Shown here: positions 31,104 through 60,899 of the stretch, piece after piece
How positions within the stretch are numbered: the first letter of the stretch is position 1
Layout of the letters: every line of letters begins with the position of its first letter
Assembly (NCBI GenBank): GCA_949130485.1
Contig: OX422188.1
Location: 6,877,969-6,941,968 of the forward strand
Direction of reading: 5' to 3'
Length of the DNA: 64,000 nucleotides
DNA from: Agelas oroides
Taxonomy: Eukaryota; Porifera; Demospongiae; Agelasida; Agelasidae
The notes under the pieces: generated by a model
What the model was told of the DNA's origin: nothing
What the model saw: the letters and a program-made list of their open reading frames with translations, nothing else
Database searches by the model: none
Position numbers and translations under genes: made by a program

Positions 31104-31637
31104 ATGATGGCACTATCAAGCAACCACTGTAAACTGTTTCTTCTGTGTTGTTGGGTAGTTCTCTTTTTCCATACCGCCATTGAGGTGCAAGCAAGATCTG
31201 TGCCGAGGTTGAAACTGGCACTGCTGAGTGAAGAATCAGGGAAGTACATCGTGGTGAACGAAAGCGGGGAGGTAAAAGCCATCGGTAGACGGAATGATCC
31301 AGCAGCACACTTCTACCCCACCTTCTTGGATGGATACATTCGGTTTGAAAGCGTGCTCTACCCTGGGAAATACCTACTCGTGGAAGAGAAAAGCAATGTG
31401 ACGCAGCTGACAGCTGGTGTGCCGATCGATTCGGAAGGATCTGGAATAGTTGACTACTCCAGTCACGAGTGGAAGCAAATATACCTGAGCGATCCAGTAA
31501 AGAGTGCGTTCAAAGTGACTGGTTCGAATGGAACGGTATGTTTCCTTGCCTTCGACAAGTTTGGTGAGGTTGTAGGTCCCTGTGCCAACGTAACAGCGTA
31601 CGACTCAACTGCAAGCTTGAGATATCTCCTCGTTTGA
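31104..31637 (+). CDS. Gene A: secreted beta-trefoil-like protein, intronless
   Basis: A 177-codon single exon. The first ~30 residues are a signal peptide with a strong hydrophobic core (LFLLCCWVVLFF) ending near VQA. The mature part has three similar lobes: LLSEESGKYIVVNESGEV, FESVLYPGKYLLVEEKSN, and CFLAFDKFGEVVGPC. A three-fold repeat of this type, with G-x-Y/F-hydrophobic-L and a turn, is the pattern of beta-trefoil proteins such as FGF and IL-1. Four N-glycosylation sequons (NES, NVT, NGT, NVT) point to secretion. The final lobe has two Cys that could form a disulfide. It is the most distant paralogue of the two-exon genes at 32.9-53.7 kb and lacks their intron. Two ATGs start the frame; the first or second could be used. 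Function is unknown. Confidence 0.85.
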   Translation: MMALSSNHCKLFLLCCWVVLFFHTAIEVQARSVPRLKLALLSEESGKYIVVNESGEVKAIGRRNDPAAHFYPTFLDGYIRFESVLYPGKYLLVEEKSNVTQLTAGVPIDSEGSGIVDYSSHEWKQIYLSDPVKSAFKVTGSNGTVCFLAFDKFGEVVGPCANVTAYDSTASLRYLLV

Positions 31638-31689
31638 GGCATAGAAGAAACATGCATTCTCCCCGACGACATGAAAACTTCATCCATGA

Positions 31690-32500
31690 GATAGAATCAC
31701 TTATTTATTTATTTATTTTATCTATACGCATATATATATATCTTACTGTTGTACAGTCTATCAATTACCATGATTTTTATCAACCAAGATTTTTCTAAAA
31801 GGAATGATGTGTATAACGCGGTTTGTAAGTCCTTCAACAATGAGCAATAAGAATAATTAACGCGCTGCTATGAACTTACTATAATCCCAGCATAAACGTT
31901 GATAAACAGACCAAACAAAAGCAGCTTCCGTATGGCAAAGTATATTGCTGGGTACATGACATGATTATTGGTACCTGGATACCTTCTCGATATTATTTTT
32001 TCTTTATCTATTTACACTCAGCTAATCATTATCTACCTAGCTGCAGTGCTTGCATGCAAGGTTATATACCATGGCTAAAAATAGTGCAGTCACGGCTGAT
32101 GTAACTGCTGCTGTTAATATTAATTGCATAACTTGCACAGTCTGCACATTTAATAAGTTAACCACATCCATGGGTGTATTAAATATCTATCTCCAGCTGC
32201 AGCGACGGATAAGAGAGAGGCTTTCCCGTTGTCGCATAGTGCATGGCAAAAACTTCTATTAACTATAATGATTCAGTTTTTGCACAGTTGTTGTGGAATG
32301 AATCTTGCTCCAGAGGACAAGGCCCCCGTCCAGCTATTCGCGCGCGTGGCTAGGAAGGAGCAACGTTCACGTTTAAGTTGCTAGCTGGCTGTGCAAGTGC
32401 GCGCGAGATCCTTGTCTTTGTAACCTAGCTCCTATTTTTAGGAGAGTATTCCACAATGTTCGCTTGGGTTGCGTGACCTAGCCAAGCACGATCACGTGAC
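31690..32500. other. 3' flank of gene A, no further gene
   Basis: Contains a (TTTA)n and (TA)n stretch at 31700-31740. A short open frame at 32050-32262 has no supporting feature. Confidence 0.5.
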
Positions 32501-32954
32501 GCAGCGTGCGACAGAGCTAAAGTGCTATATGGTTCCTGTTGCCGTAAAAGCAAAGTCTATATGCACAATTGCACACGTGTCGTCTTGCCATTAGAGCATC
32601 CGCAACTGACTAACATCCACTGTTCATGCAATAGTGCTAGCACATTGGGATTCAGGCTTTTCCATGCATGCACGTTTCATCATGTTGCTCAGATAGTTGA
32701 AATTTCAATTTTTGTTACAGCAAGTGTGCTTGGCACAATAAATATTACATAAAAATAAATAATTTCTGAAGTGATTCTATATAGCTGCAGGCCACAAAAT
32801 TAAATAATCATGAATTCCTCAAATGATTATACAGGTCTTATAGCCCTGTAAATGATAATTTCTAAATTAGACAGGCCTTATAGTCCTGAAGATAATTCAG
32901 CTAATGTTTTAGAGTCCAAAGACTGTAGGGTATAGCTCTTGGTCACGTGGAGGA

Positions 32955-33561
32955 TTATATAACCAGCCGTGGAGTGATTTCTGCCTCGGGAGCGCTGCTA
33001 GTGAGGCCACAGGCACCATACGGATCTCCAACTGTGTTAAATGCCATATAGCAATCAGGTGAAATGTGGAAGGCGAATGTACCAGTGTCGATGGTTGTGG
33101 CCGAAAACAAATCATTGTCGTTGCTGGGGACTCCGACCTTTAGCACTCCACCGTCGACCAGCAGGTATTTACCGGGGTACATCACGCTTTCGAAGCGAAA
33201 TTTTCCAGGAGAGGGCCAGGTGACGTAGAACCTTGCAGCAGGAGCTGTATGAGAAAAAGAAAGAAGACTAGTGATTAGTCTACACCTAAGTCCTGTCACA
33301 TGCATGCATGCAGTGGGTGACCTTGTATAACATCTAGGCCTATTTTTAAGGGAGATGTGGTTCGTTGATTGTTCATGCATGTGTATAGCTGCATTTACCC
33401 GTAGAAGATGCCCTTGCATGTACAGCTCCATCCCCTATTGCCTCCACAAAAAGTCCAGAACGATCGCTCAGTAAATTGTACATGACAGTAGTTGGTGCAG
33501 CAGTTGTGCAGTAGATTGCAGTTGCTAGAACTGCGCAGACGAGAAGAGTGTTGAAGGCCAT
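32955..33561 (-). CDS. Gene B (B-type): secreted beta-trefoil-like protein
   Basis: Two exons on the minus strand, 33399-33561 and 32955-33244, joined in phase 1 over a 154-bp GT-AG intron, give 150 aa. The start is the ATG at 33561, because MAFNTLLVCAVLATAIYC is then a clean signal peptide. Lobes: LLSDRSGLFVEAIGDGAV, FRFESVMYPGKYLLVDGG, and CYMAFNTVGDPYGACG. The middle lobe resembles the IL-1-family F-E-S-x(3)-P-G stretch and also sugar-binding AbfB trefoils. Gene F diverges from it 505 bp away. Genes C and E are near-identical; D is slightly diverged. No lesion is visible, so it is likely functional. Confidence 0.85.
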
Positions 33562-34066
33562 TACTGACTGACTGGTTCTTGAGTGAATTATAAGGTTGCT
33601 TTTCAAACTTGTGCAGTTGGCTGTTTGCCGCTTGATGTGCGATCTACCAATGTAGCCGTTTTTATACCTTAACCATGCAGCCGCAAGACATCATCGGTTG
33701 CGGGCTGCACGAACTCTTGTCATCCCATTCAGGCTTCATTCAAAGTTTCCTCTAGAAGGTTAGGTCATAGCGATTACATGTATAGGTCGGTTCATTTCCA
33801 CTTCCGCAGTGGCTCCTTGCGGAAGTGGAAACGAACCAACGTACAATCGCTATGACCTATAATCGCTATGTTCGAGCCACTGCGTAGGGACGATCAGAAA
33901 GCAAGCTCGCATGTGCTGGCCTAGTGTATGTGTAAACATATACCATAATGAGCCAGCGCGTGTCTTCGATCAGCGCATATAATGATGCTGCTGCACGCAG
34001 TGGAGTCTGTCTGCTGCGCGCACACTACTTCCATTGAACACAATCCGATTCAATGTGCATGCAGCA
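33562..34066. promoter_or_regulatory. Bidirectional promoter of pair B/F
   Basis: The 505-bp gap between divergent start codons holds TATA-like boxes facing both ways: TATAAAAA on the minus strand at 33659-33666, and TATAAT on the plus strand at 33978-33983. Between them an interrupted palindrome (33786-33839) has arms carrying CCACTTCCG and CGGAAGTGG, the ETS-type core. The region is essentially identical to 37464-37968. Confidence 0.65.
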
Positions 34067-35590
34067 ATGTTCAAGATCATAATGTTTGTGATAGCCATTC
34101 TCTGTGGCGCAAGACGTACACTGGAAGTGCCAGCTACTGGTTTACTGCAACTACGACTTTTAGCGGAAGAACTATTGGCTTAAGTGAGTACCTTGTCAAA
34201 TGGATTTGCAGTTATCTCTCCAACAGAGAACAGCATGTTAATTGTCTTGAATGGACAGGAATCCACCTCATCACCCGTCATTTCAGGGGTACCCCAAGGA
34301 TCTGTGTTGGGTCCCTTACTCTTCTTGCTCTACATCAATGATCTGGCTAATGGTTCCCTCTCTGAGAACTGCTTTGCATCTCTTTATGCTGATGACCTGT
34401 TACTGTACAAGATCATTACTGACCCACGGGATTACGCCACCTTGCAGTCTAACATAAACTCAGTTGCTGATTGGATAAACGAGCATTACCTCTCCCTCAA
34501 CCCCTCGAAATGACTGTGACAAGGCTTCGACAACACTCTGTAAGCCCACCTACGTTGTTACTGAATGGGGAACCTATGGAAAAGGTGGACAGCTATAAAT
34601 ACCTGGGTGTCACTTTAACAAGTGATCTCACATGGTCAGACCACATCAGAAACATCACAGCAAAGTCCAGGAGGCTTGTTGGGCTGTTATATAGACAGTT
34701 CTACAAGTGGTCCAGTCCAGCAACCCTATCCAGACTCTATATGTATCACTAGTGAGACCCCATCTTGAATACGCCTCCCCAGCATGGAGCCCCTATATTA
34801 ATAAGGACATCAACTCTTGAATCTGTGCAGAAGTTTGCCTTAAAAGTTTGCCTTAAACAGTGGAATATGCCATCCTGCCAGCTGCTCAACCATGCAGTCT
34901 CATTTGCCAGATCTTGGTACTCGCCGCAAACACTTGAGCCTGTGTTACTTTTATAACATAGTTAATGGTGTTCATGTGTATCCTAACCTACCTCTTGTAC
35001 CCCATTCACCTCAGCATGTACTTCGCAATACACATTCTTTCATGCAATTTAGTCCTCATACTAATCATTTTCAGCATTCTTTTTCCCCACATGTAACTGC
35101 CTTATGGAACACCTTACCTAGTGCTATTACTTCTGCACCAACTCTTTCTGTTTTTAAGAATTATATTCACTCTTCATAGTTTATTTTTATGGGCACAAGT
35201 ACCATATTAGTGTACTTTCACTATTCTTGTGCTTTGCATTATGCATAAAGTTTCATAGAAAAAAAAAAGAAAAAAAAAAATCTGGCCAGTTCGTTGTAGG
35301 ACTGCGTGGAGGGAGAGTCCACGCTCATGCTGCTAGACCAAGTAAGCAAATTCTAGTCAGTGCAATTTTCATGCACGCTTTACTTGAATTTACCGTATTA
35401 CAATGGTAAATGTTTTGCCATGCATTGCTTCAGTATTAATATAAAAAAATTTGTAGATTAACTTGAATGATACCTGATCGACCAACTATACACAAAATAA
35501 ACGCATATATATCCTTGGTGTTATTGGACAATTCTTTTTTGCACACACAAACAGCTAGGGCAAACAAGTTTTATACCACCTTTCCAAGTC
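34067..35590 (+). pseudogene. Gene F (G-type), broken by a LINE and truncated
   Basis: Begins like gene G (MFKIIMFVIAILCG signal peptide, then LLQLRLLAEE), but a 1.1-kb LINE fragment interrupts codon ~35 (34172-35280). The rest of exon 1 resumes at 35281 and ends at the donor after 35341. Exon 2 starts at 35555 and stops matching after 35590, where a dispersed repeat begins. The missing second half removes two of the three trefoil lobes. Confidence 0.85.
34172..35280 (+). mobile_element. 5'-truncated LINE inserted in gene F
   Basis: Encodes a decayed reverse transcriptase spread over several frames: SGVPQGSVLGPLLFLLYIND, then SLYADDLLLY with the YADD active site, then the thumb-like C-terminal part with YKYLGVTL. 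It ends in an A-rich tail. The family is CR1/L2-like by motif style. Two more 3' pieces of the same family are at 35732-36359 and 50229-50388, sharing GCATAAAGTTTCATAG before the tail. Confidence 0.88.
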
Positions 35591-35731
35591 TAAGACTTAA
35601 ATATTAAGTATTAAGTGTTAAGTGTTAGGAGAGGTATTAAATGTGTGACAAAACACAGTCGAGCCACTGATCCCAGGGAAGTTCTCCAACTGGTGACTGG
35701 TTCCTAGGAGCAAGTGACTGCATGAGCAGTC
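35591..35731. repeat. Dispersed repeat, related to 51300-51610
   Basis: TAAGACTTAAATATTAAGTA and the following ~140 bp, including CCACTGATCCCAGGGAAGTT, recur at 51300-51610, where an extra ~180 bp is present in the middle. Inverted copies of part of it lie at 57057-57260. Confidence 0.8.
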
Positions 35732-36359
35732 TTCTACAATTTGTTCTAAAGCCTGACAGCAAATTGGTATGCTCTACCGCAAATTTTACAGATACTCTGA
35801 TGTGGACTCTCTAAAGCAACTATATGCGGCATTTATCCGCCCCCATCTTGAATATGCAACTGCTGTTTGGGACCCTCACCTGTCTAAGGACAAACAAGAA
35901 CTTCAATCAGTACAACGTTTCGCATGTAGGGTCTGTACCAAAAGTTGGGATGATGCTTACTGTGATATGCTGCATACCTTGAACATACCCCCACTCTCTG
36001 AAAGGAGGAAACTACTCAAAATGTGTCATCTCTACAAAATTATTCATGGGTTTGTTGACTTTCCTAATGCACCATTACTGTGCAAGCCTTGCACTAATTA
36101 CTTCACAAGATACGCACATCCTCTCACACTCCTTCAACCTCAGACTCGCACAAACTCTTACTACTTTTCCTTTTTTTCACATGCTGTAGCAATTTGGAAT
36201 AGTTTACCTTACTCTGTTGTTTCATCACCTAATATTAGTATGTTTAAGAAAAGTTTTGTTAACTGTAACCTATCTTTATAACCTGGGTACATTATACTAT
36301 TAGCCTTTGCTATTTTATGTATCCATTGCACAAGTTGCATAAAGTTTCATAGAAAAAAA
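35732..36359 (+). mobile_element. 5'-truncated LINE 3' end
   Basis: A 170-codon intact frame encodes the region after the reverse transcriptase: LYAAFIRPHLEYATAVWDP and RFACRVCTKSWDDAY, typical of CR1/L2-group LINEs. It ends in TTTCATAG plus an A tract. Comparison with 51600-51640 shows the empty site (AGTCATTGACAAGAGAAGTT), so this is an insertion between unit 1 and unit 2. Confidence 0.88.
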
Positions 36360-36864
36360 GAGAAGTTGCTCATTTTTATGATACAGTACAGCCCTTGCAG
36401 AATGTGGGCAGGACAACATTTAGCAGGATGGTTCCTGTTGCCGTAAAAGCAAAGTCTATATGTACAATTGCACACGTGTCGTCTTGCCACTAGAGCATCC
36501 GCAACTGACTAACATCCACCATTCATGCAATAGTGCTAGCACATTGGGATTTAGGCTTTTCCATGCATGCACGTTTCATCATGTTGCTCAGATAGTTGAA
36601 ATTTCAATTTTTTGTTACAGCAAGTGTGCTTGGCACAATAAATATTACATAAAAATAAATAATTTCTGAAGTGATTCTATAGCTGCAGGCCACAAAATTA
36701 AATAATCATGAATTCCTCAAATGATTATACAGGTCTTATAGCCCTGTAAATGATATAATTTCTAAATTAGACAGGCTTTATAGTCCTGAAGATAATTCAG
36801 CTACATGTAATCTTTTAGAGTCCAAAGACTGTAGGGTATATATAGCTCTTGGTCATGTGGAGAA

Positions 36865-37463
36865 TTATATAACCAGCCTTGGAGTGATTTCTGCCTCGGG
36901 AGCGCTGCTAGTGAGGCCACAGGCACCATACGGATCTCCAACTGTGTTAAATGCCATGTAGCAATCAGGTGAAATGTGGAAGGCGAATGTACCAGTGTCG
37001 ATGGTTGTGGCCGAAAACAAATCATTGTCGTTGCTGGGGACTCCGACCTTTAGCACTCCACCGTCGACCAGCAGGTATTTACCGGGGTACATCACGCTTT
37101 CGAAGCGAAATTTTCCAGGAGAGGGCCAGGTGACGTAGAACCTTGCAGCAGGAGCTGTATATGAGAAAAGAAAGAAGGCTAGTGATTAGTCTACACCTAA
37201 GGCCTGTCACATGCATGCAGTGGGTGACCTTGTATATAGGCCTATTTTTAAGGGAGATGTGGTTCGTTGATTGTTCATGCATGTGTATAGCTGCATTTAC
37301 CCGTAGAAGATGCCCTTGCATGTACAGCTCCATCCCCTATTGCCTCCACAAAAAGTCCAGAACGATCGCTCAGTAAATTGTACATGACAGTAGTTGGTGC
37401 AGCAGTTGTGCAGTAGATTGCAGTTGCTAGAACTGCGCAGACGAGAAGAGTGTTGAAGGCCAT
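36865..37463 (-). CDS. Gene C (B-type): secreted beta-trefoil-like protein
   Basis: Exons 37301-37463 and 36865-37154, phase-1 intron of 146 bp, 150 aa. Coding sequence matches gene B at almost every position, including the signal peptide and the CYMAFNTVGDPYGACG motif. About 440 bp of 3' flank is also shared with gene B, so the whole segment was duplicated recently. Gene G diverges from it over 505 bp. No lesion is visible. Confidence 0.85.
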
Positions 37464-37968
37464 TACTGACTGACTGGTTCTTGAGTGAATTATAAGGTTG
37501 CTTTTCAAACTTGTGCAGTTGGCTGTTTGCCGCTTGATGTGCGATCTACCAATGTAGCCGTTTTTATACCTTAACCATGCAGCCGCAAGACATCATCGGT
37601 TGCGGGCTGCACGAACTCTTGTCATCCCATTCAGGCTTCATTCAAAGTTTCCTCTAGAAGGTTAGGTCATAGCGATTACATGTATAGGTCGGTTCATTTC
37701 CACTTCCGCAGTGGCTCCTTGCGGAAGTGGAAACGAACCAACGTACAATCGCTATGACCTATAATCGCTATGTTCGAGCCACTGCGTAGGGACGATCAGA
37801 AAGCAAGCTCGCATGTGCTGGCCTAGTGTATGTGTAAACATATACCATAATGAGCCAGCGCGTGTCTTCGATCAGCGCATATAATGATGCTGCTGCACGC
37901 AGTGGAGTCTGTCTGCTGCGCGCACACTACTTCCATTGAACACAATCCGATTCAATGTGCATGCAGCA
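37464..37968. promoter_or_regulatory. Bidirectional promoter of pair C/G
   Basis: Same layout as 33562-34066: minus-strand TATAAAAA at 37561-37568, plus-strand TATAAT at 37880-37885, and an interrupted ETS-type palindrome at 37687-37741. Confidence 0.65.
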
Positions 37969-38648
37969 ATGTTCAAGATCATAATGTTTGTGATAGCCAT
38001 TCTCTGTGGCGCAAGACGTACACTGGAAGTGCCAGCTACTGGTTTACTGCAACTACGACTTTTAGCGGAAGAATCTGGCCAGTTCGTTGTAGGACTGCGT
38101 GGAGGGAGAGTCCACGCTCATGCTGCTAGACCAAGTAAGCAAATTCTAGTCAGTGCAATTTTCATGCACGCTTTACTTGAATTTACCGTATTACAATGGT
38201 AAATGTTTTGCCATGCATTGCTTCAGTATTAATATAAAAAAATTTGTAGATTAACTTGAATGATACCTGATCGACCAACTATACACAAAATAAACGCATA
38301 TATATCCTTGGTGTTATTGGACAATTCTTTTTTGCACACACAAACAGCTAGGGCAAACAAGTTTTATACCACCTTTCCAAGTCCTGGTCACATCAGATTT
38401 GAGTCTGTAAAATTCCAAGGAAGATTCTTGTTAATTGACCATCGAAAAGGCAAACTGAAGTTGGGTGAACCAAAGAATGGAAATGATATTCTCGAGATCC
38501 AGCACTTGAACGACCAGTCCTAAGTGCATTCAGAGATTCAGAGAACTGCTACTTTGCCTTCGACAAAGAAGGCGAACAAGTTGGGCCTTGTGGACTGAAT
38601 ATCACGGAAAATAGCCCTATGATAAGAATGCGTTACATGATAGTATGA
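37969..38648 (+). pseudogene. Gene G (G-type), single-base deletion in exon 2
   Basis: Exon 1 (37969-38134) encodes the signal peptide MFKIIMFVIAILCG and first lobe LLAEESGQFVVGLRGGRV. Exon 2 starts at 38348 after a phase-1 intron and encodes NKFYTTFPSPGHIRFESVKF with LLIDHRKGKLKLGEPKNGND. One C is missing near 38513 (AACGACCAGTCC where copy H has AACGATCCAGTC), giving a stop at 38521. The downstream frame still encodes CYFAFDKEGEQVGPCG and ends at 38648. The gene is thus either a very recent pseudogene or intact with an assembly error. Overall similarity to gene A is clear in all three lobes. Confidence 0.8.
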
Positions 38649-38649
38649 A

Positions 38650-38990
38650 AACAGGCATCATACAGTCATTTATATATATATCTGTACTGGCAGTGTATTT
38701 ATCATTTTCTCAGATATATTTTACCACAGAGTACAGCTTCTTATTGTGCATGTATATATTTTTACTTTCTCTGTATTCTGTCACATGTGCATGCATGATT
38801 GGTACTATGTTTAGGCGTAGTGAACTTGTTTACATCTTCCTTATTTATAAACGTGGGACGTTTGATCAAAACAATGAAATCCTATAAACTAAGCCACATT
38901 CCAGTATATAGCTTGCACAATGCATACACGCGCAGTTGCCATACAATCAGGCTGTTACGCTATTACGCTATTAGTACGACAAAGCAGAAA
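38650..38990. other. 3' flank of gene G, no gene
   Basis: AT-rich; the hydrophobic open frame at 38645-38887 has no supporting evidence. Confidence 0.5.
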
Positions 38991-38994
38991 TTAA

Positions 38995-39361
38995 GTTATA
39001 GATAAACCACAGTAGACAGGGATTTATGGTCCATAAACCACCTGAGCCCAAGGGCGCAGCCCGAGGGCAAGGGTTGTTTATGGACCATAAATCCCTGTCT
39101 ACTGTGGTTTATCTGTTATATTCTCCACTCTGATTGGTCCTTGTTGTTATTAGTAAATACACATGGTAGTTTTCACTGTAAACAAGGTATGTTATTAGTA
39201 AACATGTAAAGTAATTTACACTCTAAACAAAGTAGCTTATAGGAAACATCATTTTACAACTCCTGTGGTATATGGAACAGAATCTACAGAATCTACAACT
39301 TCCTGTCAGTATATGGAAAATAATACCCACCTGTTACCACAGAAACAAGGGTGAAGTGGAG
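38995..39361. mobile_element. Foldback element F2, copy 2
   Basis: Begins with the same palindrome as 12757-13105 (ATAAACCACAGTAGACAGGG arms) and continues in parallel with it to CAAGGGTGAAGTGGAG. Confidence 0.82.
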
Positions 39362-39478
39362 TATATAATAATTATAAATACGGGGTGAAAGTACAACTGG
39401 AGGAGCAAGTATAAACGAGGGGGTCGTGATGGACAGGTAAAAATAAAAAATAACAGGAAAAAGGTTTGTGTTCATGAG

Positions 39479-39733
39479 TTAAACAGAGGATGAAATGTTT
39501 GATTCGCCGTTAACGAGGTCGACCACCGTGGGGATCTTGATGGCATGTCCACACGACGATCGAGCTCCTCTGATGAACTGGATATCAGAATGTAGGAGGG
39601 AGAAAGCCAGACTATAGCACAGCCGGCATAGTGTGCTGCTGTAGGGGTGATCCCATTTTGAGGCAAGCAAAGAGGCCAATCTTTTGTAGAATGTGCTGGC
39701 TTCGTTAGCAAGACCTCCCGTGGCAGAGATCAC
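39479..39733 (-). mobile_element. Retroelement ORF fragment
   Basis: The minus-strand frame encodes GGLANEASTFYKRLASLLAS and a hydrophobic SLAFSLLHSDIQFIRGARSS. I recall this pattern from C-terminal parts of animal retroelement polyproteins, but the assignment is by motif feel only. A second copy lies at 53716-53900. Confidence 0.45.
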
Positions 39734-39799
39734 TAGATGCGCTCTTGAGATGTATATAGGGGAATCCCCACTGCTATAAAATCATGCCAATAGCAAAAC

Positions 39800-40905
39800 G
39801 CTTCCAAATGAAAATCATTCAGTCATTAAACTTTCTCAGTGATTATCAATGTGGTACTTCCTATCGTTGTTGGAGTTACCAAAACTTTACGTTTGATCAA
39901 CAAATGAAATCACTCTTGCTAACATGACGCACTTACAACGACTGCTTACGTACATCAACACAGCCAGGAATGAATACTAGGGGAATGCAGTGCATTGTGG
40001 GGCGAGCGTGAGGGAGTTGTATGGTGCAGTAGCGTTCCATATACACTACCTTTTCCCACTTGCATATATGTCTCATTCCCAGGACTTCCCCACCTCCAAC
40101 TGTAGCCTGTAAAACTATACAGGAGGAGAACACCTGGGGAACAGGCTATATAGGATATCAAATGTATCCCGGTGTTTGTGGAGCAATATAACTTGTGTTG
40201 TGCTAATCTTGGGTTCGTTGTACACTCTCTGTGTCATTACTGTGAAATGCTGCATGCAACAAGGTCTCAAAACATTTGGAGGTGGCTTGAAGAGTTGCAA
40301 GGATGAGGGTTCAACATCTTGATACGAACAAGTATATTCCGTTGTTTTCCTGTGTCTCCAACTTATTCACATCTTGGCATGCACTGTCTCCTCAATTCAC
40401 GGTGTATAGTGCACGGATATTTGCTGAGACCATACAGCTGTGCATGGGATCAGAATTCTCTCAGGTATGGGTATAGAGTCAGGGTGATGTAGACTATTGC
40501 CAGCCCCGAGTTTTCCAGAGCACAATTACTGGAGTTGTGGTATGGGGTTTTAGAAGCTCTTCTGTAGCTGTTGCTAACGAGGGTTGTTCGGTCAAGTCAC
40601 ACAGACCTCTCTGGTTTGGGTCCTCAAGCTAATCACTCTGTCTTACACAGAACACTCCCGGTTGGCGGCAGTGTCATGCAGCGCGTTAATAATCAGCTTC
40701 CGTCTTGCTAGTCGTGCCTCCTTTCCTCGCCTTTTTCAAGTCCCTGTTACGTTGGTTCCCACTGTTCAGCCTTTCTGTCCTGCTAGTCTTGTCCCTTGAG
40801 CAACAGTCAGTGGTTACATGAACTAACTTGCAATGTGGAAATATTGCATCGCGCACAAATGGGGCAGGATGTATATATACGGAATACGCACGTACCATAT
40901 AAACA
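39800..40905. other. No gene seen
   Basis: The first ~330 bp (to about 40110) is shared in part with 53900-54130. Fragments of the GGGGCGAGCGTGAG and CTCATTCCCAGG repeat families occur at about 40000 and 40075. Confidence 0.5.
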
Positions 40906-40910
40906 TATTT

Positions 40911-41644
40911 CTAGCCCGTTACTATGTGGTTGCTATGTAATAGAGTGCATTATATTTCAGATAAAGCCTTGTAGTTTGTATCCCGCGGGCATCAAGTACA
41001 GGTAACTTTATTTGCCTGGATTTACGCAGAATTTTTTATGTGCATTCTCAACCGCTCAGCATTGCGATAACAGAATGGGTCGACGACAGCGATGGCCAGT
41101 CCGAGAACAAGCCGCGCGGACAAGCCCCAACGGGCCAAAAGAGACGAAAATCAAACCGGTAACGCTCTGTGCTCACGGTGGCTACGAAGCTAGCTTTGAG
41201 GCTTGTTTCGTGGACATAGGATGCCTTGAGAAACATAATTTGTCAACAGTGCTGTTGGAAAACAGCAGAAAGCATCACGGCATAGCCGTCAATTCTCATA
41301 AGGCTTCGCCACTCGCCCCGTTTCCGGACTGGCTGTCGTCGCCCATCGCAGTGTTGAACGGTTTCAAAGTCGCAGCTACGACAAAAATGGTTGTTACTAC
41401 AAGTAACTGAGTACTACCGTACCTGTAAGCTAGCTAGACTACTAGTGCAACCTTCGAAAAACAGCTGCGTTCACAAATAAACACACCGCTGACATAGCAA
41501 CACATTGAAGCGCATGCGCAAACGGGCTAGAAGCCAGTTATTAACCGCACCCTCGGGCTTTAGTTGATATATAAGCAACACCGCCCTCGGGCCGCGGGCG
41601 GTGTGCTTATATATCTACTAAAGCCCTCGTGAGCGGTTAATAAC
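40911..41644. repeat. Duplicated element pair, copy 1
   Basis: A MITE-like part (40911-41530; TIR CTAGCCCGTT with inner TGCTATGT) is followed by a foldback (41538-41643) whose arms are GTTATTAACCGC and GCGGTTAATAAC. The 110-codon frame MGRRQRWPVREQAARTSPNG inside shows no recognisable domain and differs in frame from copy 2 near its end, so it is not called as a gene. Confidence 0.75.
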
Positions 41645-41662
41645 TATAACATATAAATAATT

Positions 41663-42387
41663 CTAGCCCGTTACTATGTGGTTGCTATGTAATAGAGTGC
41701 ATTATATTTCAGATAAAGCCTTGTAGTTTGTATCCCGCGGGCATCAAGTACAGGTAACTTTATTTGCATGGTTTACGCAGAATTTTTTATGTGCATTCTC
41801 AACCGCTCAGCATTGCGATAACAGAATGGGTCGACGACAGCGATGGCCAGTCCGAGAACAAGCCGCACGGACAAGCCCCAACGGGCCAAAAGAGACGAAA
41901 ATCAAACCGGTAACGCTCTGTGCTCACGGTGGCTACGAAGCTAGCTTTGAGGCTTGTTTCGTGGACATAGGATGCCTTCAGAAACATAATTTGTCAACAG
42001 CGCTGTTGGAAAATAGCAGAAAGCATCACGGCATAGCCGTCAATTCTCGTAAGGCTTCGCCATTCGGGCCCGTTTCCGGACTGGCTGTCGTCGCCCATCG
42101 CAGTGTTGAACGGTTTCAAAGTCGCAGCTACGACAAAAATGGTTGTTACTACAAGTAACTGAGTACTACCGTACCTGTAAGCTAGCTAGACTACTAGTGC
42201 AACCTTCGAAAAACAGCTGCGTTCACAAATAAACACACCGCTGACATAGCAACACATTGAAGCGCATGCGCAAACGGGCTAGAAGCCAGTTATTAACCGC
42301 ACCCTCGGGCTTTAGTTGATATATAAGCAACACCGCCCTCGGGCGGTGTGCTTATATATCTACTAAAGCCCTCGTGAGCGGTTAATA
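41663..42387. repeat. Duplicated element pair, copy 2
   Basis: Direct repeat of 40911-41644, separated by 18 bp, differing by a few substitutions and small indels. Confidence 0.9.
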
Positions 42388-42396
42388 AATATAGGT

Positions 42397-42537
42397 TATA
42401 CGATGAAACCGAGGGGTCTACGGGATTTAGATACCCGCGGAAACCTATATAAACACCCGCGCGCGAAGCGCAAGGGTGTTTATGGTTTCCAAGGGGATCT
42501 AAATCCCGTAGGCCCCGAGGGTTTCATCGTATAAGGT
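42397..42537. mobile_element. 141-bp foldback element
   Basis: Arms GGTTATACGATGAAACC and GGTTTCATCGTATAAGG, with inner arms CTACGGGATTTAGAT and ATCTAAATCCCGTAG, fold into one long hairpin around GCGCGCGAAGCGC. Confidence 0.85.
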
Positions 42538-42539
42538 AT

Positions 42540-43350: not shown

Positions 43351-43357
43351 TGTTTAA

Positions 43358-44023: not shown

Positions 44024-44029
44024 TTAAAT

Positions 44030-45700: not shown

Positions 45701-45784
45701 GAAAAGAAGAACGAAAGCGCTTCAATTTGATGTGCGTTGTAAGGCTATTGGCCGAAATTTCGACTGTGGGTGCGGGTTTTTGCA

Positions 45785-46660
45785 AGCATACGTAGATAAT
45801 AGAGCACTGAAACGGGATTGGAAACGGGCAAACTCGGGCAAAACGCCGATGACGTCACGTTGAATCCTCGTAATTCCGGGTGTTTCAGTTAGAAGGCGGT
45901 GCCCACTAACCGGTGTACGATCGTTTATCTCCCGCGCGGGTCATCGCACTAGAGGTTCTTGTGCATTTACTGATATACCACGGTATCTACTAGGCTACAA
46001 TATTCTGGTAGAAAATTGTACTATGCACAGTTGTGAATTGATTTTTATGCAATGTAGAAATGCTAAAATAATAGTATCATAGTTTTTCTGGAAAATAAAC
46101 AGGGCTACCCAATGATGCAAGCTGTCATAAAGTGTAACCATTACCAAAGAATGTAACTGAGTGGCTTATTTCTTTGTGATACAGTACACTGTTTGATGGG
46201 AGGTCTTGAAAAGTGTAAATAATGTGAAAACTCTTGTAGTTTTCTGGAGAGATCTGTACCCTGGTTTAGGTAAAGTCTGCTGGTACAGTATTAGCAGTAC
46301 ATAGGTCAATGTAATGCTGACAAAACAATAGAGCTGCAGTAATTGTGTGCACTTTTCTCCAGCTTTCTGAACAGGTGCCTCCAGCTCATGCAGAGGACAT
46401 ATCAATCTGTCTTAGTCGTCTTTAGGCCTGCTGATAATTTTCAGGACTCGTGAATATCCCTCCATCGCAATAGCTGTCTGCCAGAAAGCACTCGACATTC
46501 GGGGAAAGAAGAAACGCACATAACCGCCGCTCTCGCACAGTCGTCTACTAGTACTGCCAATGCAGTGTGCGTCAGATTACGTGACCGAAACGATGATTCG
46601 ACGTAAAATTATTGCCGTTTCCAATCCCTGTTCGTAGCTCTATTATCTATATGTTGCAAG
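45785..46660. mobile_element. Probable inverted-repeat element
   Basis: CATACGTAGATAATAGAGC with GGGATTGGAAACGGGCAA at the left is matched inverted at the right by TTGCCGTTTCCAATCCC with GCTCTATTATCTATATG. The exact borders are uncertain. Confidence 0.6.
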
Positions 46661-46994
46661 ACACATACAACGGTGCCGCATTCAATATAGCACTTCCGCT
46701 CCAAAAAGGGTTACGCAATTTTTCACTGTTATGAATATCATTTGGACTCGCTATAAATTCTGTGTGGGATGTCTAGCTAGCTCTGGAAGAGGCTAGAGCC
46801 CCCCCGCATCTCTTGAACCTCCTTCATGCAGATTTTGGAGTACTCTCTGACGAGGGCAATTTCATATCGCCATTATATATGCAGAGCTCAGACAGTAAAA
46901 CAGGCAAACTTCTTTATAATATGTTTTCATGACTATATTGCTAAATGTTAATATTAGTGACTTGTAAGCCGTGGTGTCGGCTGGGAGTGTATAT

Positions 46995-47160
46995 AGCCTC
47001 GTTCTCAGGTCTTCCCCGTTTTGTTCTTCGGTTTGCGTTATGTATAATACACGGAAGCGGAAGAGCCGCTCTTCCGCTTCCGTGTATAGTCTCGTGCCCA
47101 GACCTTCCCGCACGTGCGAGAAAGAGGGTCTAGTGTTCTGATGTCACATGGGGCGGGGTA
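46995..47160. repeat. Palindrome and TAGTCTCGTGCCCAGACC element ends
   Basis: A perfect palindrome with CGGAAGCGGAAGAG arms lies at 47052-47083. It is followed by TAGTCTCGTGCCCAGACC and the block GTCTAGTGTTCTGATGTCAC, which is also seen at about 5630-5705. Confidence 0.7.
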
Positions 47161-47870
47161 GCTCCCCGATCTGAGAGCTCGAATCAGATTCTAGAACGCA
47201 TAATTATATGTGCATGACGTAAGCGATCGTATTTTTGAACCGAATTGGAGGTAGAAAAAACTTACCTCACAGCTCGTTCTCAGCTTTCCCAAGAAACTTA
47301 GCGGCCTTATCAAGCTTTTGTAAACCATACCGTGCAGCAGTCCAAGTCGTCAGAAAACTCGAGTCCCGGATGTAAAATGACATTCTTTACGCCGTAGGCC
47401 CCGCCCCATGTGACAAAGTTGGGGGGGGGGGGGACGTGTCCCCCGGCCCTCCCCGCTTCTGTCGCCTACGCATGTTCGTAAATTAGCTATGAGCTCCATT
47501 CGCCACTCTCCTGTCCAGGCGAACAAACACATGGATGTCTCACTTCCTTTGTCGTTGGCGTTCGGGATCTTTCAGGAGTCAACACCTCCGTTGTTCTGGT
47601 ACACACGCCGCGCAGTAAAATTATGTGTTACTGCGCGGAGCGCGCACCAATTGCGAAATACAGTAGTACACCATAGATAATACATACCGGGTATATATTA
47701 TCTATGCTTACACTTAGAAAGTTATTCTGATAGGCTCAAAGCCTCAAGCCCCAGGTTCTCCGGGGTCCCTATAGCAGGGAGAGCCTGCATGGGAACAAAA
47801 CTAAGCACTGTAGTCTGAGTCAGCGGAAAGGTATAGCATATGCACGGCACATGCAATCATCTCACAATGC
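47160..47870. other. No gene seen
   Basis: Contains a poly-G tract (47420-47432) and an inverted match to the CACATGGGGCGGGG block at about 47400. Nothing else is supported. Confidence 0.5.
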
Positions 47871-47874
47871 AACA

Positions 47875-48360
47875 CCTCCCTGTGCACATTGTATTTGCTG
47901 CATGGAACTAACTGGTTCACACAAACACAATTCACTTAACTTCAGTTCCCTTAATTTTTGATGGTCAATTGACAGGAACCCCTTCGTTGAAATTTTACCG
48001 CCACAGCTCAAATCTGACTTGGAAGGTGGTATAATACTTGTTTGCCCTGTATGCAAACAAGGAATTACCTTATACGTTTAATTCACCGGCAAACAAATAC
48101 ACAATGGCAAAGCATTTACCATTATAGAAGTACATCTCGTTCAGTACACACGTATATTTGACGGACTACAACTAACTTCTGCTTACTTGGTCTAGCAGCA
48201 GCATGAGCATGTACTCTCCCTCCACGCAGTCCTGCAACAAACTGGCCAGATTCAGGCTTCCACTAAGAGTCGTAGTTGTATAGCGAATCAGTAGCTGGCG
48301 CTTCCAGTTTGCGTCTTGCGCCACAGAGAATGGCCACAATTATGATCTGATTCACATTGA
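47875..48360 (-). pseudogene. Gene I (G-type), degenerate
   Basis: On the minus strand the exon-1 region still reads GTGGCCATTCTCTGTGGCGC and CGTGGAGGGAGAGTAC, as in gene G, followed by a donor-like GACCAAGTAAGC. The start ATG of gene G is missing because of a small deletion at about 48340, and an insertion of 4 bases at about 48250 shifts the frame. Exon 2 (about 47880-48056) keeps GGGCAAACAAG and TTGACCATCAAAAA but is frame-broken. It diverges from intact gene D. Confidence 0.75.
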
Positions 48361-48786
48361 ATCGATGCAAATGTATGGTGTGCGCAGCGGCCAGATTTCC
48401 CTCCGTGCGGCATTAAAAGTCGTAAGTTTATCATGCAGGGCTAGTCAGCAGTCACATTATATGCGCCAAATGACTCGAGACACGCACTGGCTAGGCCCCA
48501 CATGCATTCTGATCGTCCCTGAGCAGGTTCGAACGTCCCTGCGTAAGCGGAAATGGACCGGAACCGACCTAACCGTACGACCTAACCTTGAGAAGCGCGA
48601 GTTCACTGCGGCCTGAATGGGGTGACGCTGAGTTCATGCAAACCCGCGGCGCCATACTATACATGGTCCAGTTTGCAACAGAGTATAAAAACGGCTACGT
48701 TGGTAAATCGACCATCAAACAAACAACCAACTGCACAAGTTTGAGCTGAAGCAACTTTAATTCACTCAAGACCCACTTTGTCAGTA
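48361..48786. promoter_or_regulatory. Intergenic promoter region of pair I/D
   Basis: TATAAAAA at 48684-48691 lies about 96 bp before the gene D ATG, as in genes B, C and E. The large palindrome of the other units is absent. Only one half-like stretch (GCGGAAATGGACCGGAACCG at about 48547) remains. Confidence 0.6.
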
Positions 48787-49324
48787 ATGGCCTTCAACAC
48801 TCTTCTCGTCTGCGCAGTTCTGGCAACTGCAATCTACTGCACAACTGCTGCACCAACTACTGTCATGTACAATTTACTGAGCGATCGTTCTGGACTTTTT
48901 GTGGAGGCACTTGCAAATGGAGATGTACGTGCAAGAGCATCTTCTACGGGTAAGTGGCTATACACATGCGTGCATGTGACAGACTTGGGTGTATGGAGTA
49001 ATCACTAGCCTTCTTTCTTTTCTCATGCATACAGCTCCTGCTGCAAGGTTCTACGTCACCTGGCCCTATCCTGGAAAATTTCGCTTCGAAAGCGTGATGT
49101 ACCCGGGCAAATACCTGCTGATCGACGGTGGAGTGCTGAAGACCGGAGTCCCCAGCAACGACAATGATTTGTTTTCGGCCACAACCATCGACACTGGTAC
49201 ATTCGCCTTCCACATTTCACCTGACTGCTACATGGCATTTAATACAGTTGGAGATCCGTATGGTGCCTGTGGCCTCACTAGCAGCGCTCCCGAGGCAGAA
49301 ATCACTCCAAGGCTGGTTATATAA
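48787..49324 (+). CDS. Gene D (B-type): secreted beta-trefoil-like protein
   Basis: Exons 48787-48949 and 49035-49324, phase-1 intron of 85 bp, 150 aa. Signal peptide MAFNTLLVCAVLATAIYC; first lobe LLSDRSGLFVEALANGDV differs from B, C and E; second lobe FESVMYPGKYLLIDGGVL; third lobe with CYMAFNTVGDPYGACG. It is the most diverged B-type copy but fully open. The unit lies in the opposite orientation to the other three. Downstream sequence (to about 49560) is homologous to the 3' flanks of B, C and E. Confidence 0.87.
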
Positions 49325-49729
49325 TTCTCCATGACATGACCATGGCAGTCTTTGGACTCTAAAAGATTAGCTGAATTATCTTCAGGACTATAAGGCCTGT
49401 CTATTTAGAAATTATCATTTACAGGGCTATAAGACCTGTATATAATCACTTTGTAGGATATTTAATTTTGTGGCCTGCAAGTATAATGAATCAGTTCTTT
49501 ATGACAATTGTAATATTTATTGTGCCCAAAGCACACTTGCTGTAATAGAAATTTGAACCATCTGAGAAGCATGTCGAAACTGCGGACGCATGGAAAAGTG
49601 CCTGCCAATGTCAGCTGCTGCTATTGCATGGACGGCAGATGTTAGTCAGTTACATCTAGTTAGGATGCTCTGGTGCATGGCAAGACTACCATACATCCCA
49701 CATATACATGCATGCAATTATGCATGAGT

Positions 49730-50130
49730 TCCACTTTAGTGCACCATCCTGTCTATACACTTGCGCATTGCATAGCCAAGCTAGCAGCTTAGCCAAATCT
49801 AGCAGCTTAGTCGTAAAGGTTTCTAGCCACGCGCGCGAAAAGCTGAGCGGAAGCCTTTGGCTGCACGATTGAATATTTTACCGGTGTCAGAGAAGTCTCT
49901 CTCAATTTTTGTCTCTTAGCTTATCATTCGTTCATTGCTCTTATTTTTTACTCTTATTTATTTATTTATCGGGCAGGCTTCGTATTAGCATTGAGTTGCT
50001 ATTGCCTGACCCTAATGCATACTCTGCTGTGCATTAAACCATCATGATTAAAAAAAAAAAAGTGCATGAGTGCTTGACTCCCCAGTCATTGGCTCCTATA
50101 AGGATCAAATGACTTCTCCCTGGGACCCCT
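49730..50130. repeat. Left part of an inverted duplication
   Basis: Matches the reverse complement of about 57860-58065, for example GCACCATCCTGTCTATACAC and GAAAAGCTGAGCGGA. Sequence from 50690 to 51610 continues the match towards 57050. Confidence 0.75.
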
Positions 50131-50138
50131 AGTATACT

Positions 50139-50678
50139 TAGTCTCGTGCCCAGACTACTTTTCGCCGAGCGGGAAAATAGTCTGGTAACTGCGTTTTGGT
50201 TCCGAAATCACCGTGACGTCACGTTTCATTTATTTTTCCTATGAAACTTTATGCAACTTGTGCAATGGATACATAAACTAATATAGTATAATGTACCCAG
50301 ATTATAAAGATAGGTTATAGTTAACAAAAACTTTTCTTAAACATACTAATATTAGGTGATGAAACAACGCAGTAAGGTAAACTATTCCGTTCAAGTGGAT
50401 TATGAATTCAAGAGCGCTCTAGTAAACAGCGAACTCCGAGACAGCCTACTTGTGCTCCTTTCGAAAGATAGAATAGCCTAGTCAATACGCGGCAGCTAGG
50501 GTTGCCCGATCAATGTCCATTTCGCTAGTAGATCGTTGGCACGCAATGTGGAATGCAATCTTCAAGCGTTAAATTAGAAAAGAATAATGCGCCAGCATTC
50601 CGGCGCACTTGAACGAAAATGGAATAGGCAGTTGACGAGATCGGTGGGCGCGAAAAATGCGGTCTGGGAACGAGACTA
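50139..50678. mobile_element. MITE, TAGTCTCGTGCCCAG family, with nested LINE end
   Basis: Inverted ends TAGTCTCGTGCCCAGAC and GTCTGGGAACGAGACTA; exact 9-bp target duplication TAGTATACT at 50130-50138 and 50679-50687. A 3' LINE fragment sits inside it at 50229-50388. Confidence 0.88.
50229..50388 (-). mobile_element. 5'-truncated LINE 3' end, nested
   Basis: Reverse complement matches the last ~160 bp of the 35732-36359 LINE (GGAATAGTTTACCTTACTG through TTTCATAGG and a T-rich complement of the tail). Confidence 0.85.
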
Positions 50679-50689
50679 TAGTATACTGT

Positions 50690-51620
50690 TTCAAGTTATT
50701 CCATGACAGATTACGCTAATTTTTCTCGCCATTATATAGTACCATTGATCGCTACTGATGAGTTAACGTAATTGACAATGGAAGTGAATATTAATATAAC
50801 ATTTGCATGCCGTTGTTACAGGAAGTTTGATCGCTCGGAAATATTATCGCGGCGTTCATATTTCCTGGGAAGTTTAATCGTCGAGCGCGTAACTTTTCCC
50901 TAGAAAAATGACCAAGTTAGGTGCTTCTTACACTACTGCTATTTTTTTTAATATTTTTTTTATGATAATAAATTTGATGCATTAGCACAGGTCAATAGAA
51001 ATAGCTGTATATATATGAGCTAGTGTCAATCTAAAGACCTTACAACAAAACCAAACAACAACACAATAACAAGACGTAAGCTACGAATACAACTATAGTT
51101 ATGTAGGGCATGTTTAAAGGACAACAGAGAGTTCTTGCTGGCAACATCAAAGTGTATTTCGTGAGCGATCAAATTTCCTGGCAGCGTTAATCCTTTATTT
51201 CGAAATTGTCCCCCCTTTTACAATTTTGCAATAATGCAAGGGTACATAAATAGCAATTGCTAACTTGATAATGCACCCAGAAAGAAATCCAACTTAACTA
51301 AGACTTAAATATTAAGTATTAAGTGTTAAGTGTTAGGAGAGGTATTAAATGTGTGACAAAATATACAGTCCGTTTTAAAGAATGCAATGACTGGCAGTTT
51401 CCCCTTGCTGTAGTGTTGAGTGTATTGAGAAACTGTTACCTCTGGTCTGAAATACAATTGGCAGGGCAGCCGCATATTATTATCGGCACACCAACCTGAA
51501 AGAACAGATTTGTGTATATTCATGTCCTACAGTAACTATAGGAGCCACTGATCCCAGGGAAGTTCTCTAACTGGTGACTGGTTCCTAGGAGCAAGTGACT
51601 GCATGAGTAGTCATTGACAA
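50690..51620. repeat. Right part of the inverted duplication, mosaic
   Basis: Contains pieces matching 57057-57480 inverted (for example TGGTCTGAAATACAATTG and ATTATCGGCACACCAACCTG) and GAGCGATCAAATTTCCTGGC in both orientations, so smaller inverted motifs lie within it. Confidence 0.7.
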
Positions 51621-52120
51621 GAGAAGTTGCTCATTTTTATGATACAGTACAGCCCTTGCAGAATGTGGGCAGGACAACATTTAGCAGGATGGTTCCTGTT
51701 GCCAAAGCAAAGTCTATATGCACAATTGCACACGTGTCGTCTTGCCATTAGAGCATCCGCAACTGACTAACATCCACTGTTCATGCAATAGTGCTAGCAC
51801 ATTGGGATTTAGGCTTTTCCATGCATGCACGTTTCATCATGTTGCTCAGATAGTTGAAATTTCTATTTTTTGTTACAGCAAGTGTGCATGGCACAATAAA
51901 TATTACATAAAAATAAATAATTTCTGAAGTGATTCTATATAGCTGCAGGCCACAAAATTAAATAATCATGAATTCTTCAAAATTTATAATGATTATACAG
52001 GTCTTATAGCCCTGTAAATGATAATCTCTAAATTAGACAGGCCTTATAGTCCTGAAGATAATTCAGCTAATGTTTTAGAGTCCAAAGACTGTAGGGTATA
52101 GCTCTTGGTCACGTGGAGGA

Positions 52121-52725
52121 TTATATAACCAGCCGTGGAGTGATTTCTGCCTCGGGAGCGCTGCTAGTGAGGCCACAGGCACCATACGGATCTCCAACTG
52201 TGTTAAATGCCATGTAGCAATCAGGTGAAATGTGGAAGGCGAATGTACCAGTGTCGATGGTTGTGGCTGAAAACAAATCATTGTCGTTGCTGGGGACTCC
52301 GACCTTTAGCACTCCACCGTCAACCAGCAGGTATTTGCCGGGGTACATCACGCTTTCGAAGCGAAATTTCCCAGGATAGGGCCAGGTGACATAGAACCTT
52401 GCAGCAGGAGCTGTATGAGAAAAGGAAGAAGGCTAGTGATTAGTCTACACCTAAGTCCTGTCACTTGCATGCATGCATGCAGTGGGTGACTTTGTATATA
52501 GGCCTATTTTTAAGGGAGATGTGGTTCGTTGATTGTTCATGCATGTGTATAGCTGCATTTACCCGTAGAAGATGCCCTTGCATGTACAGCTCCATCCCCT
52601 ATTGCCTCCACAAAAAGTCCAGAACGATCGCTCAGTAAATTGTACATGACAGTAGTTGGTGCAGCAGTTGTGCAGTAGATTGCAGTTGCCAGAACTGCGC
52701 AGACGAGAAGAGTGTTGAAGGCCAT
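52121..52725 (-). CDS. Gene E (B-type): secreted beta-trefoil-like protein
   Basis: Exons 52563-52725 and 52121-52410, phase-1 intron of 152 bp, 150 aa. The protein matches genes B and C at every position I compared; only nucleotide changes and intron/flank indels separate them. The start at the MAFN ATG gives the signal peptide; an upstream in-frame extension is transcribed leader and lacks a signal. Gene H diverges from it over 487 bp. Confidence 0.85.
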
Positions 52726-53212
52726 TATTGACTGACTGGTTCTTGAGTGAATTATAAGGTTGCTTTTCAAACTTGTGCAGTTGGCTGTTTGCCGCTTGAT
52801 GTGCGATCTACCAATGTAGCCGTTTTTATACCTTAACCATGCAGCCGCAAGACATGTTGCGGGCTGCACGAACTCTGTCATCCCATTCAGGCCGGTGAAC
52901 TCAACGTTTCCTCTAGAAGGTTAGGTCATAGCGATTATAGGTCGGTTCATTTCCACTTCCGGAAGTGGAAATGAACCGACGTACAATTGCTATGACCTAT
53001 AATCGCTATGTTCGAGCCACTGCGTAGGGACGATCAGAAGCAAGCTCGCATGTGCTGGCCTAGTGTATGTGTAAACATATACCATAATGAGCCAGCGCGT
53101 GTCTTCGATCAGCGCATATAATGATGCTGATGCTGCACGCAGTGGAGTCTGGCTGCTGCGCGCGCGCACACTACTTCCATTGAACACAATCCGATTCAAT
53201 GTGCATGCAGCA
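52726..53212. promoter_or_regulatory. Bidirectional promoter of pair E/H
   Basis: Minus-strand TATAAAAA at 52823-52830 and plus-strand TATAAT at 53117-53122. At 52941-52980 lies a perfect 40-bp palindrome centred on ACTTCCGGAAGT (a double ETS-type site); outer arms AGGTCATAGC and GCTATGACCT extend it further with few mismatches. Confidence 0.7.
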
Positions 53213-53718
53213 ATGTTCAAGATCATAATGTTTGTGATAGCCATTCTCTGTGGCGCAAGACGTACACTGGAAGCGCCAGCTACTGGTTTACTGCAACTAA
53301 GACTTTTAGCGGAAGAATCTGGCCAGGACTGCTGGAGGGAGAATGCACGCTCATGCTGCTAGACCAAGTAAGCAAATTCTAGTCAGTGCAATTTTCATGC
53401 ACGCTTTACTTGAATTTACCGTATTACAATGGTAAATGTTTTGCCATGCATTGCTTCAGTATTAACATAAAAAATTGTAGATTGACCAACTACACAAAAT
53501 AAACGCATATATATCCTTGGTGTTATTGGACACTTCTTTTTTGCACACACAAACAGCTAGGGCAAACAAGTTTTATACCACCTTTCCAAGTCCTGGTTGA
53601 GTCTGTAAAATTCCCAGGAAGATTCTTGTTAATTGACTATCGAAAAGGCAAACTGAAGTTGGGTGAACCAAAGAATGGAAATGATATTTTCGAGATCCAG
53701 CACTTAAACGATCCAGTC
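53213..53718 (+). pseudogene. Gene H (G-type), frameshifted and truncated
   Basis: The signal peptide MFKIIMFVIAILCG and LLQLRLLAEESGQ match gene G, but a 10-base deletion at about 53328 shifts the frame. Exon 2 (from about 53562) lacks about 11 bases before GAGTCTGTAAAATTC. The match ends at about 53718 (GATCCAGTC), where a retroelement fragment begins, so the third lobe is absent. Confidence 0.82.
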
Positions 53719-53900
53719 GCACGACGATCAAGCTCCTCTGATGGACTGGATATCAGAACGTAGGAGGGAGAAAGCCAGACTATAGCGCAGCGAGCATAGT
53801 ATGCTGCTGTAGGGGTGATCCCATTTTGAGGCAAGCAAAGAGTGCCAATCTTTTGTAGAATGTGCTGGCTTTGTTAGCAAGACCTCCCGTGGCAGAGATC
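53716..53900 (-). mobile_element. Retroelement ORF fragment, second copy
   Basis: Same sequence as 39550-39735 (GATCGAGCTCCTCTGATG-like start, ACCTCCCGTGGCAGAGATCA end). It truncates gene H. The following ~200 bp also parallels 39740-39960. Confidence 0.6.
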
Positions 53901-59561: not shown

Positions 59562-59566
59562 TTACA

Positions 59567-60898: not shown

Positions 60899-60899
60899 T

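Follow-up and report, generated by a model that had tools for sequence, protein, structure and literature searches.

The 64,000-nucleotide (nt) window considered here, which is the whole stretch of DNA analyzed and forms part of contig C6 of a 259-Mb, 141-contig animal genome, contains a family of genes for probably secreted proteins with sequence similarity to fibroblast growth factors (FGFs). The family comprises a lone gene, A, and four loci in which a gene of one type (B-type) and a gene of a second type (G-type) stand head-to-head across a shared gap. An earlier note, made from the letters of the window, had described this arrangement, and the arrangement holds at the DNA level.

Genes and shared gaps of the cluster

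Gene A (31104..31637, + strand) is intronless, a single uninterrupted open reading frame (ORF) of 177 codons that starts MMALSS and probably encodes a secreted FGF-like protein. At the first head-to-head locus, the intact B-type gene B (32955..33561, − strand) consists of exon 1 at 33561-33399, an intron at 33398-33245, and exon 2 at 33244-32955 and specifies 150 amino acids. A gap of 505 base pairs (bp) (33562..34066), which contains an inverted repeat and one TATA-like box per direction, lies between it and the broken G-type gene F (34067..35590, + strand), whose exon 1 is interrupted and whose exon 2 ends after ~40 nt. The second locus has the same form: gene C (B-type, 36865..37463, − strand; exon 1 37463-37301, exon 2 37154-36865; 150 amino acids) is intact, the gap (37464..37968) is again 505 bp, and gene G (G-type, 37969..38648, + strand) is broken, a single base disrupting the reading frame in exon 2. 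At the third locus the G-type member is a relic, gene I (47931..48348, − strand), with frame breaks, a truncated exon 2, and no aligned start codon; the gap (48349..48786) is about 440 bp if its edge is set at the first aligned base of I, and the B-type gene D (48787..49324, + strand; exon 1 48787-48949, exon 2 49035-49324; 150 amino acids) is intact. The fourth locus pairs the intact B-type gene E (52121..52725, − strand; exon 1 52725-52563, exon 2 52410-52121; 150 amino acids) with the G-type gene H (53213..53718, + strand) across 487 bp (52726..53212); H has deletions in both exons and ends at 53718 against other repeat DNA.

The four B-type genes of the window (B, C, D, and E) are thus all intact; each specifies 150 amino acids, and the C protein is identical to the B protein. 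In each, an exon 1 of 163 nt is followed by a phase-1 intron, with donors reading GTAAATGC or GTAAGTGG and acceptors ending in CAG. The intron of the G-type genes occupies the same position, exon 1 of G being 3 nt longer, which confirms in both gene types the common phase-1 intron place that had been proposed for the pairs. The family members resemble one another beyond chance as judged by tblastn searches of a few loci, in which A matches D with E=1e-12 and D matches exon 2 of G3, a G-type gene beyond the window, with E=1e-20.

The gaps were described beforehand as TATA-containing and 440-505 bp long, and both points stand. Six genes (A, A2, B, D, G, and G3) were checked for TATA-like boxes, which precede their start codons by 91-129 nt, and an alignment of five gaps shows the boxes on both sides to be conserved. 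The inverted repeat, TAGGTCATAGCGAT ... ATCGCTATGACCTA flanking a CCACTTCCGC hairpin, is found in the B/F gap (33760-33870), the C/G gap (37660-37775), and, in shortened form, the E/H gap (52915-53010) and is mostly absent from the I/D and D2/I2 gaps; it is a candidate for a small element inserted into the shared promoter region.

The cluster extends about 32 kb past the window, where D2, I2, A2, and G3 are located. D2 is an intact B-type gene, opposite in orientation to D, whose partner I2 is a G-type relic; the gap between them has been enlarged to about 1 kb by an insertion. A2 (G000:C6:6969402-6969926) is 84% identical to A. G3 is the sole intact G-type gene found, encoding 154 amino acids; its exon 1 is again 163 nt long and its intron again in phase 1, and a relic of the start of a B-type exon 1 (79% identical) stands head-to-head with it at about 400 bp. 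The head-to-head layout is therefore traceable at six loci (B/F, C/G, I/D, E/H, D2/I2, and G3 with the relic), and no partner was found for two further relics, of which one is B-type and follows A2 and the other is G-type and lies on contig C3. The former, at L005:2427-2543, preserves 39 amino acids of a B-type C terminus about 500 bp past A2, and its position beside A2 suggests that A and B genes also traveled together. ORF and intron are both undamaged in five of the seven B-type copies found. Because the genome searches score the best candidates only, these copy counts are lower bounds. Relatives on other contigs are a gene, J, on C12 and the G-type relic with stops on C3, both read by hand. 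No protein match was obtained in the 27 kb beyond the locus of G3 (L009, L024, and L025) or in the first 31 kb of the window, and no relative of the family was confirmed among 11 pattern matches in IMG/VR or 66 pattern matches in a set of bacterial and archaeal genomes.

Duplication and one-sided decay

Self-comparison of the window shows B/F and C/G to be 97.6% identical over 1.66 kb. E/H is 92.6-94.8% identical to these two, the D side of I/D is 81-89% identical, and the I side is 73-77% identical. From these identities it follows that the four pairs arose from a single ancestral divergent pair by segmental duplication. The proposal that the cluster was built from duplicated head-to-head pairs was therefore right about its origin. 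The accompanying suggestion, that no described gene system has this layout, does not call for a new system, as repeated segmental duplication of one pair suffices.

The G-type partners in the window are all broken (4 of 4). Exon 1 of F is split by an insert of ~1.1 kb (about 34172-35275) that bears a reverse-transcriptase fragment, and most of exon 2 is lost. G is 96% identical to intact G3 over exon 2, and its defect is a frame break of 1 nt. H has suffered its deletions and a cut end at 53718, and I has several indels and has lost its start. An assembly error could account for the one-base break in G but hardly for those in F, H, and I. Because every G-type partner is broken, the pairs in the window are not working pairs, and the statement in the earlier note that each pair keeps one B-type and one G-type partner is wrong in the functional sense.

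The B side has fared differently. Nonsynonymous and synonymous changes number 1 and 7 between B and E (P=4e-4), 9 and 11 between B and D (P=0.004), 8 and 12 between E and D (P=9e-4), and 9 and 9 between C and D (P=0.02), counts that share branches among the pairs compared. This preference for synonymous sites indicates that the B-type coding sequence is constrained and that, as the G side decayed, the B side was retained. Two changes separate D from D2, and both are nonsynonymous. Constraint is weaker between A and A2, for which nonsynonymous divergence (dN) is 0.085 and synonymous divergence (dS) is 0.15.

Two further duplicated blocks are present. One, of 430 bp, occurs at 39552-39976 and 53720-54147 with 94.7% identity, its second copy starting just past the point where H breaks off; the other, of 757 bp, is a tandem duplication (40893-41648 and 41647-42393, 97.1%) located between C/G and I/D.

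The FGF-like reading and its alternatives

With moderate confidence, we take the cluster to encode FGF-like secreted proteins of a demosponge and to derive from a head-to-head pair that was copied and then decayed on one side. On present similarities, the proteins are best read as putative divergent FGF-like ligands. When a profile of six family members was compared with PDB sequences, FGF8b came first (E=4.5e-6, profile positions 28-136), followed by designed trefoils, which we take to be derived from FGF1, and then by FGF1 and FGF10 entries (E 0.15-0.85); no IL-1 (interleukin-1), fascin, or ricin-type lectin was present among the 29 PDB matches. A five-member profile without J also placed FGF8b first (E=1.3e-4). 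Among Pfam families, FGF scores best with A (18.4 bits, E=0.0022), A2 (13.7), G3 (18.8), and J (25.3).

Of the family members, gene J scores highest with Pfam FGF. It was located on contig C12 through a weak exon match (E=0.06) and is 29% identical to G3. Its highest-scoring Pfam family is FGF, at 25.3 bits against a cut-off of 24 and over profile positions 3-110 of 124. Searched alone against the PDB, J gave 54 matches, all of them FGFs or designed trefoils and none a fascin, the best natural one being FGF8b in register (E=0.08). The predicted J gene is divided into three exons (154, 116, and 195 nt) by introns of phase 1 and then phase 0, and its splice sites are consensus-like. Introns of the FGF family are generally found at the same lobe boundaries, and other FGFs generally share the two-intron layout; the first sponge intron would, by our reading, lie about three codons before that of FGF8. 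The coding exons of FGF5 are given as 364, 104, and 348 nt in elephants and mammoth in the available text of PMC2754481, lengths that imply intron phases of 1 and 0, the same as those of J. A two-intron core with phase 1 preceding phase 0 is thus common to predicted gene J and to FGF5 as its exon lengths are given there. The B- and G-type genes have only the phase-1 intron, at the corresponding boundary between lobes 1 and 2, and A has none.

Some protein features bear on secretion. A, B, D, G3, and J all start with a hydrophobic stretch that was judged by eye to be a signal peptide, and a low-confidence model of A has a helix at residues 5-30, with block-mean confidence (pLDDT) of 71-88 over residues 1-20. 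A cysteine pair 14-15 residues apart is present in lobe 3 of all five proteins examined. Three similar lobes had been claimed, and this claim survives in part: among 12 lobe comparisons in four proteins, those of lobes 1 and 2 in A and in J were outscored by 1 and 4, respectively, of 500 shuffles, and that of lobes 1 and 3 in J is marginal (23 of 500), but 9 of the 12 comparisons are not significant.

A number of results weigh against an FGF assignment. The resemblance among the three lobes is weak. A, A2, and G3 fall under the Pfam FGF cut-off of 24, and a Pfam search with B and D gave nothing at E up to 10. J also scores 21.9 bits to fascin (cut-off 23.1) and 14.1 bits to RicinB_lectin_2 (cut-off 25.6), both below threshold, and its FGF1 matches are one lobe out of register. 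Against the PDB, A alone gave 15 matches, to designed trefoils only, and G3 alone gave no trefoil match, whereas the family profiles had weak matches (E 0.18-3.5) to RsgI5 and arabinofuranosidases. Some of these proteins carry sugar-binding trefoils. The PROSITE FGF signature is absent from all five proteins compared with it (A, B, D, G3, and J), which lowers the case for a canonical FGF but not for an FGF-like protein; divergent FGFs may also lack it. AlphaFold models of A with exon fragments of the window and of mature A with fragments were of low confidence (pLDDT 44.8 and 39.9). A six-frame scan of the genome with the FGF profile gave two matches, both of them fascins and neither a family member, and missed both the cluster and J, whose core is divided over exons. 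Finally, no FGF receptor was established among three Pfam-scanned loci of 143 kinase matches or in an exon set on contig C4.

Fascins deserve particular attention because two true fascins of this genome reach 26.3 and 24.0 bits with the Pfam FGF model, so the passing score of J is not decisive alone. This result is a warning on the specificity of that model among beta-trefoils. What separates J from the fascins is that J scores FGF above fascin and has no PDB fascin match, and the tested fascin shows the reverse: its PDB matches include fascins at 1e-118 or better but not a single natural FGF. A2 is likewise below the fascin threshold, at 12.2 bits against 23.1. The two fascin genes (L020:343-1884 and L021:388-1896, both − strand) score 235 and 211 bits to fascin (PF06268). 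They are beta-trefoils, as the family members probably are, and J approaches the fascin cut-off and fascins cross-match the FGF model; unlike the family, both are single open frames of about 500 amino acids with four fascin domains and, by eye, no signal peptide.

The strongest competing explanation, which we nevertheless consider unlikely, is that these are fast-evolving secreted beta-trefoils serving immunity, allorecognition, or defense, lectin-like in character and sharing only the fold with FGFs. The cluster displays recent local duplication and many dead copies, a pattern typical of gene families for immunity or defense; most members fall under the FGF cut-off, other trefoil families also reach the FGF model, and J has its weak RicinB_lectin_2 match. 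However, FGF8b tops the family profile with no ricin-type lectin in its 29 matches, J has FGF-like intron phases, and the B-type copies are constrained rather than diversifying. The earlier description of the products as secreted, beta-trefoil-like, and possibly extracellular ligands finds support and can be narrowed by the profile matches to FGF-like ligands, the other option raised there, lectin-like factors, being less probable.

A bolder form of the FGF reading is also doubtful. It would hold that sponges keep true FGF orthologues with the ancestral two-intron gene, that the FGF ligand is older than the divergence of sponges from the other animals, and that the divergent pair in this lineage encoded complementary, co-regulated acidic and basic FGFs (an agonist and a partner or antagonist) under a shared promoter region, the pair having then been amplified and thrown out of balance as the basic member was lost.

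It is improbable that the cluster is an assembly artifact or non-functional repeat debris, whether uncollapsed haplotypes or amplified pseudogenes. The near identity of B/F and C/G (97.6%), the breakage of all four G-type copies in the window, the two B-type relics in L005, and the largely repetitive character of the region would all suit such an origin, but D2 is opposite to D in orientation, which uncollapsed haplotypes would not produce, the changes in B-type genes show constraint, and five of seven B-type copies are intact in both ORF and intron. Least probable are IL-1-like cytokines, likewise secreted trefoils with a similar 'FES..YPG' stretch: the FESV.YPGKYLL stretch in A, B, and D presumably resembles IL-1 sequences, but no IL-1 chain was found in profile or single-sequence PDB searches at E up to 10, nor any IL-1 Pfam match for A, B, D, A2, G3, or J at the same limit.

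In the FGF-like reading, the ancestral head-to-head pair consisted of an acidic B-type and a basic G-type gene; the predicted isoelectric points of the mature proteins (first 25 residues removed) are 4.9 for B and D, 9.6 for G3, 5.4 for A, and 6.4 for J. Local segmental duplication copied this pair several times, and the sequences show both the copying and the decay. B-type copies were mostly retained under purifying selection, and the G-type copies decayed except for one intact gene whose B partner decayed instead. The N-terminal sequences predict that the products are secreted, and the profile matches point to a probable FGF-type beta-trefoil fold; their most likely role would be paracrine signaling among sponge cells by way of a receptor tyrosine kinase, matrix glycans, or both. 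On charge, one may speculate that the basic G-type protein was retained by glycans and the acidic B-type protein diffused freely, and a division between a glycan-bound and a diffusible ligand, driven from one shared promoter region, is possible.

Compared with the FGF family (PF00167), the sponge family is similar in that the cores of J, A, and G3 score against the FGF profile, FGF8b is the best PDB match of the family profile, and the predicted intron phases of J equal those of mammalian FGF5. It differs in that only J exceeds the Pfam cut-off, A is intronless, the B- and G-type genes lack the second intron, and the signature is absent. Another demosponge, Spongilla lacustris, has an FGF 'morpholog' found by structure with 11.8% identity to chicken FGF4, according to the available text of Ruperti et al. 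2023 (PMC10176882), which also places FGF pathway genes, including FGF receptors, in pinacocytes. That protein is an FGF-like ligand of a demosponge, but its alignment covers residues 61-230 (PMC10176882, same text), and it is hence longer than the 150-177 amino acids found here; the portion of PMC10176882 at hand mentions neither a cluster nor head-to-head pairs. An 'FGF homologue' was measured in Chondrosia, as the accessible part of PMC9820676 reports. Within the text available from each, PMC7260276 (citing Bertrand 2014) places FGF receptors at the eumetazoan origin, and a survey of the FGF gene family is confined to eumetazoan groups, with the words sponge, Porifera, and Amphimedon absent (PMC3420111). 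No report of a sponge FGF gene cluster or of head-to-head FGF pairs was found in the literature searched, subscription papers being mostly outside its reach. Within the limits of these searches, two things are new: a sponge gene with FGF-like intron phases, and a cluster formed by duplication that is now half decayed. A sponge gene combining FGF-profile similarity with mammalian FGF intron phases would make the age of FGF signaling directly testable, and the cluster is a compact example of a gene pair that was duplicated repeatedly and decayed on one side.

Other elements of the window and genome

Three kinase loci were considered and set aside as receptor candidates: a tyrosine kinase that also has an SH2 domain, a second tyrosine kinase whose open frame has no other domain scoring over the cut-off, and a locus with a Kringle domain. 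The C4 exon set scored 157 bits with RET and 156 bits with FGFR2, behind an EGFR-labelled chain at 205, and no Pfam match was obtained for the stretch upstream of it, which had been read as FN3-like. Local tyrosine-kinase gene arrays at C4:10029159-10180914, C15:1231345-1494532, and C8:4672909-5935803 account for many of the 143 matches to the FGFR1-kinase query.

Ten open frames of the window that were scanned with Pfam gave retroelement domains and one Hpt match under cut-off. A nearly complete retroelement of the long interspersed nuclear element (LINE) type occupies 58506-63209 (+ strand), its ORFs encoding a PHD finger (32.4 bits), an endonuclease (PF03372), and a reverse transcriptase (PF00078, 131.7 bits), and a tandem repeat follows to the end of the window. 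At 8350-9045 (− strand), a tandem repeat open in three frames, with SGESRQ/VKATCQE-type units, forms a satellite-like array.

Mitochondrial atp9 in a setting such as that of contig C141 marks a sponge. This contig (22,436 bp; L054-L056) is a demosponge mitochondrial genome that uses genetic code 4 and carries cox2, atp8, atp6, cox3, cob, atp9, nad4, nad6, nad3, nad4L, cox1, nad1, and many tRNAs, in what we take to be the common demosponge order. Pfam confirmed cox1, atp9 (ATP-synt_C, 50.5 bits), and a LAGLIDADG endonuclease frame, the other genes being named by reading; the LAGLIDADG frame lies between two parts of cox1.

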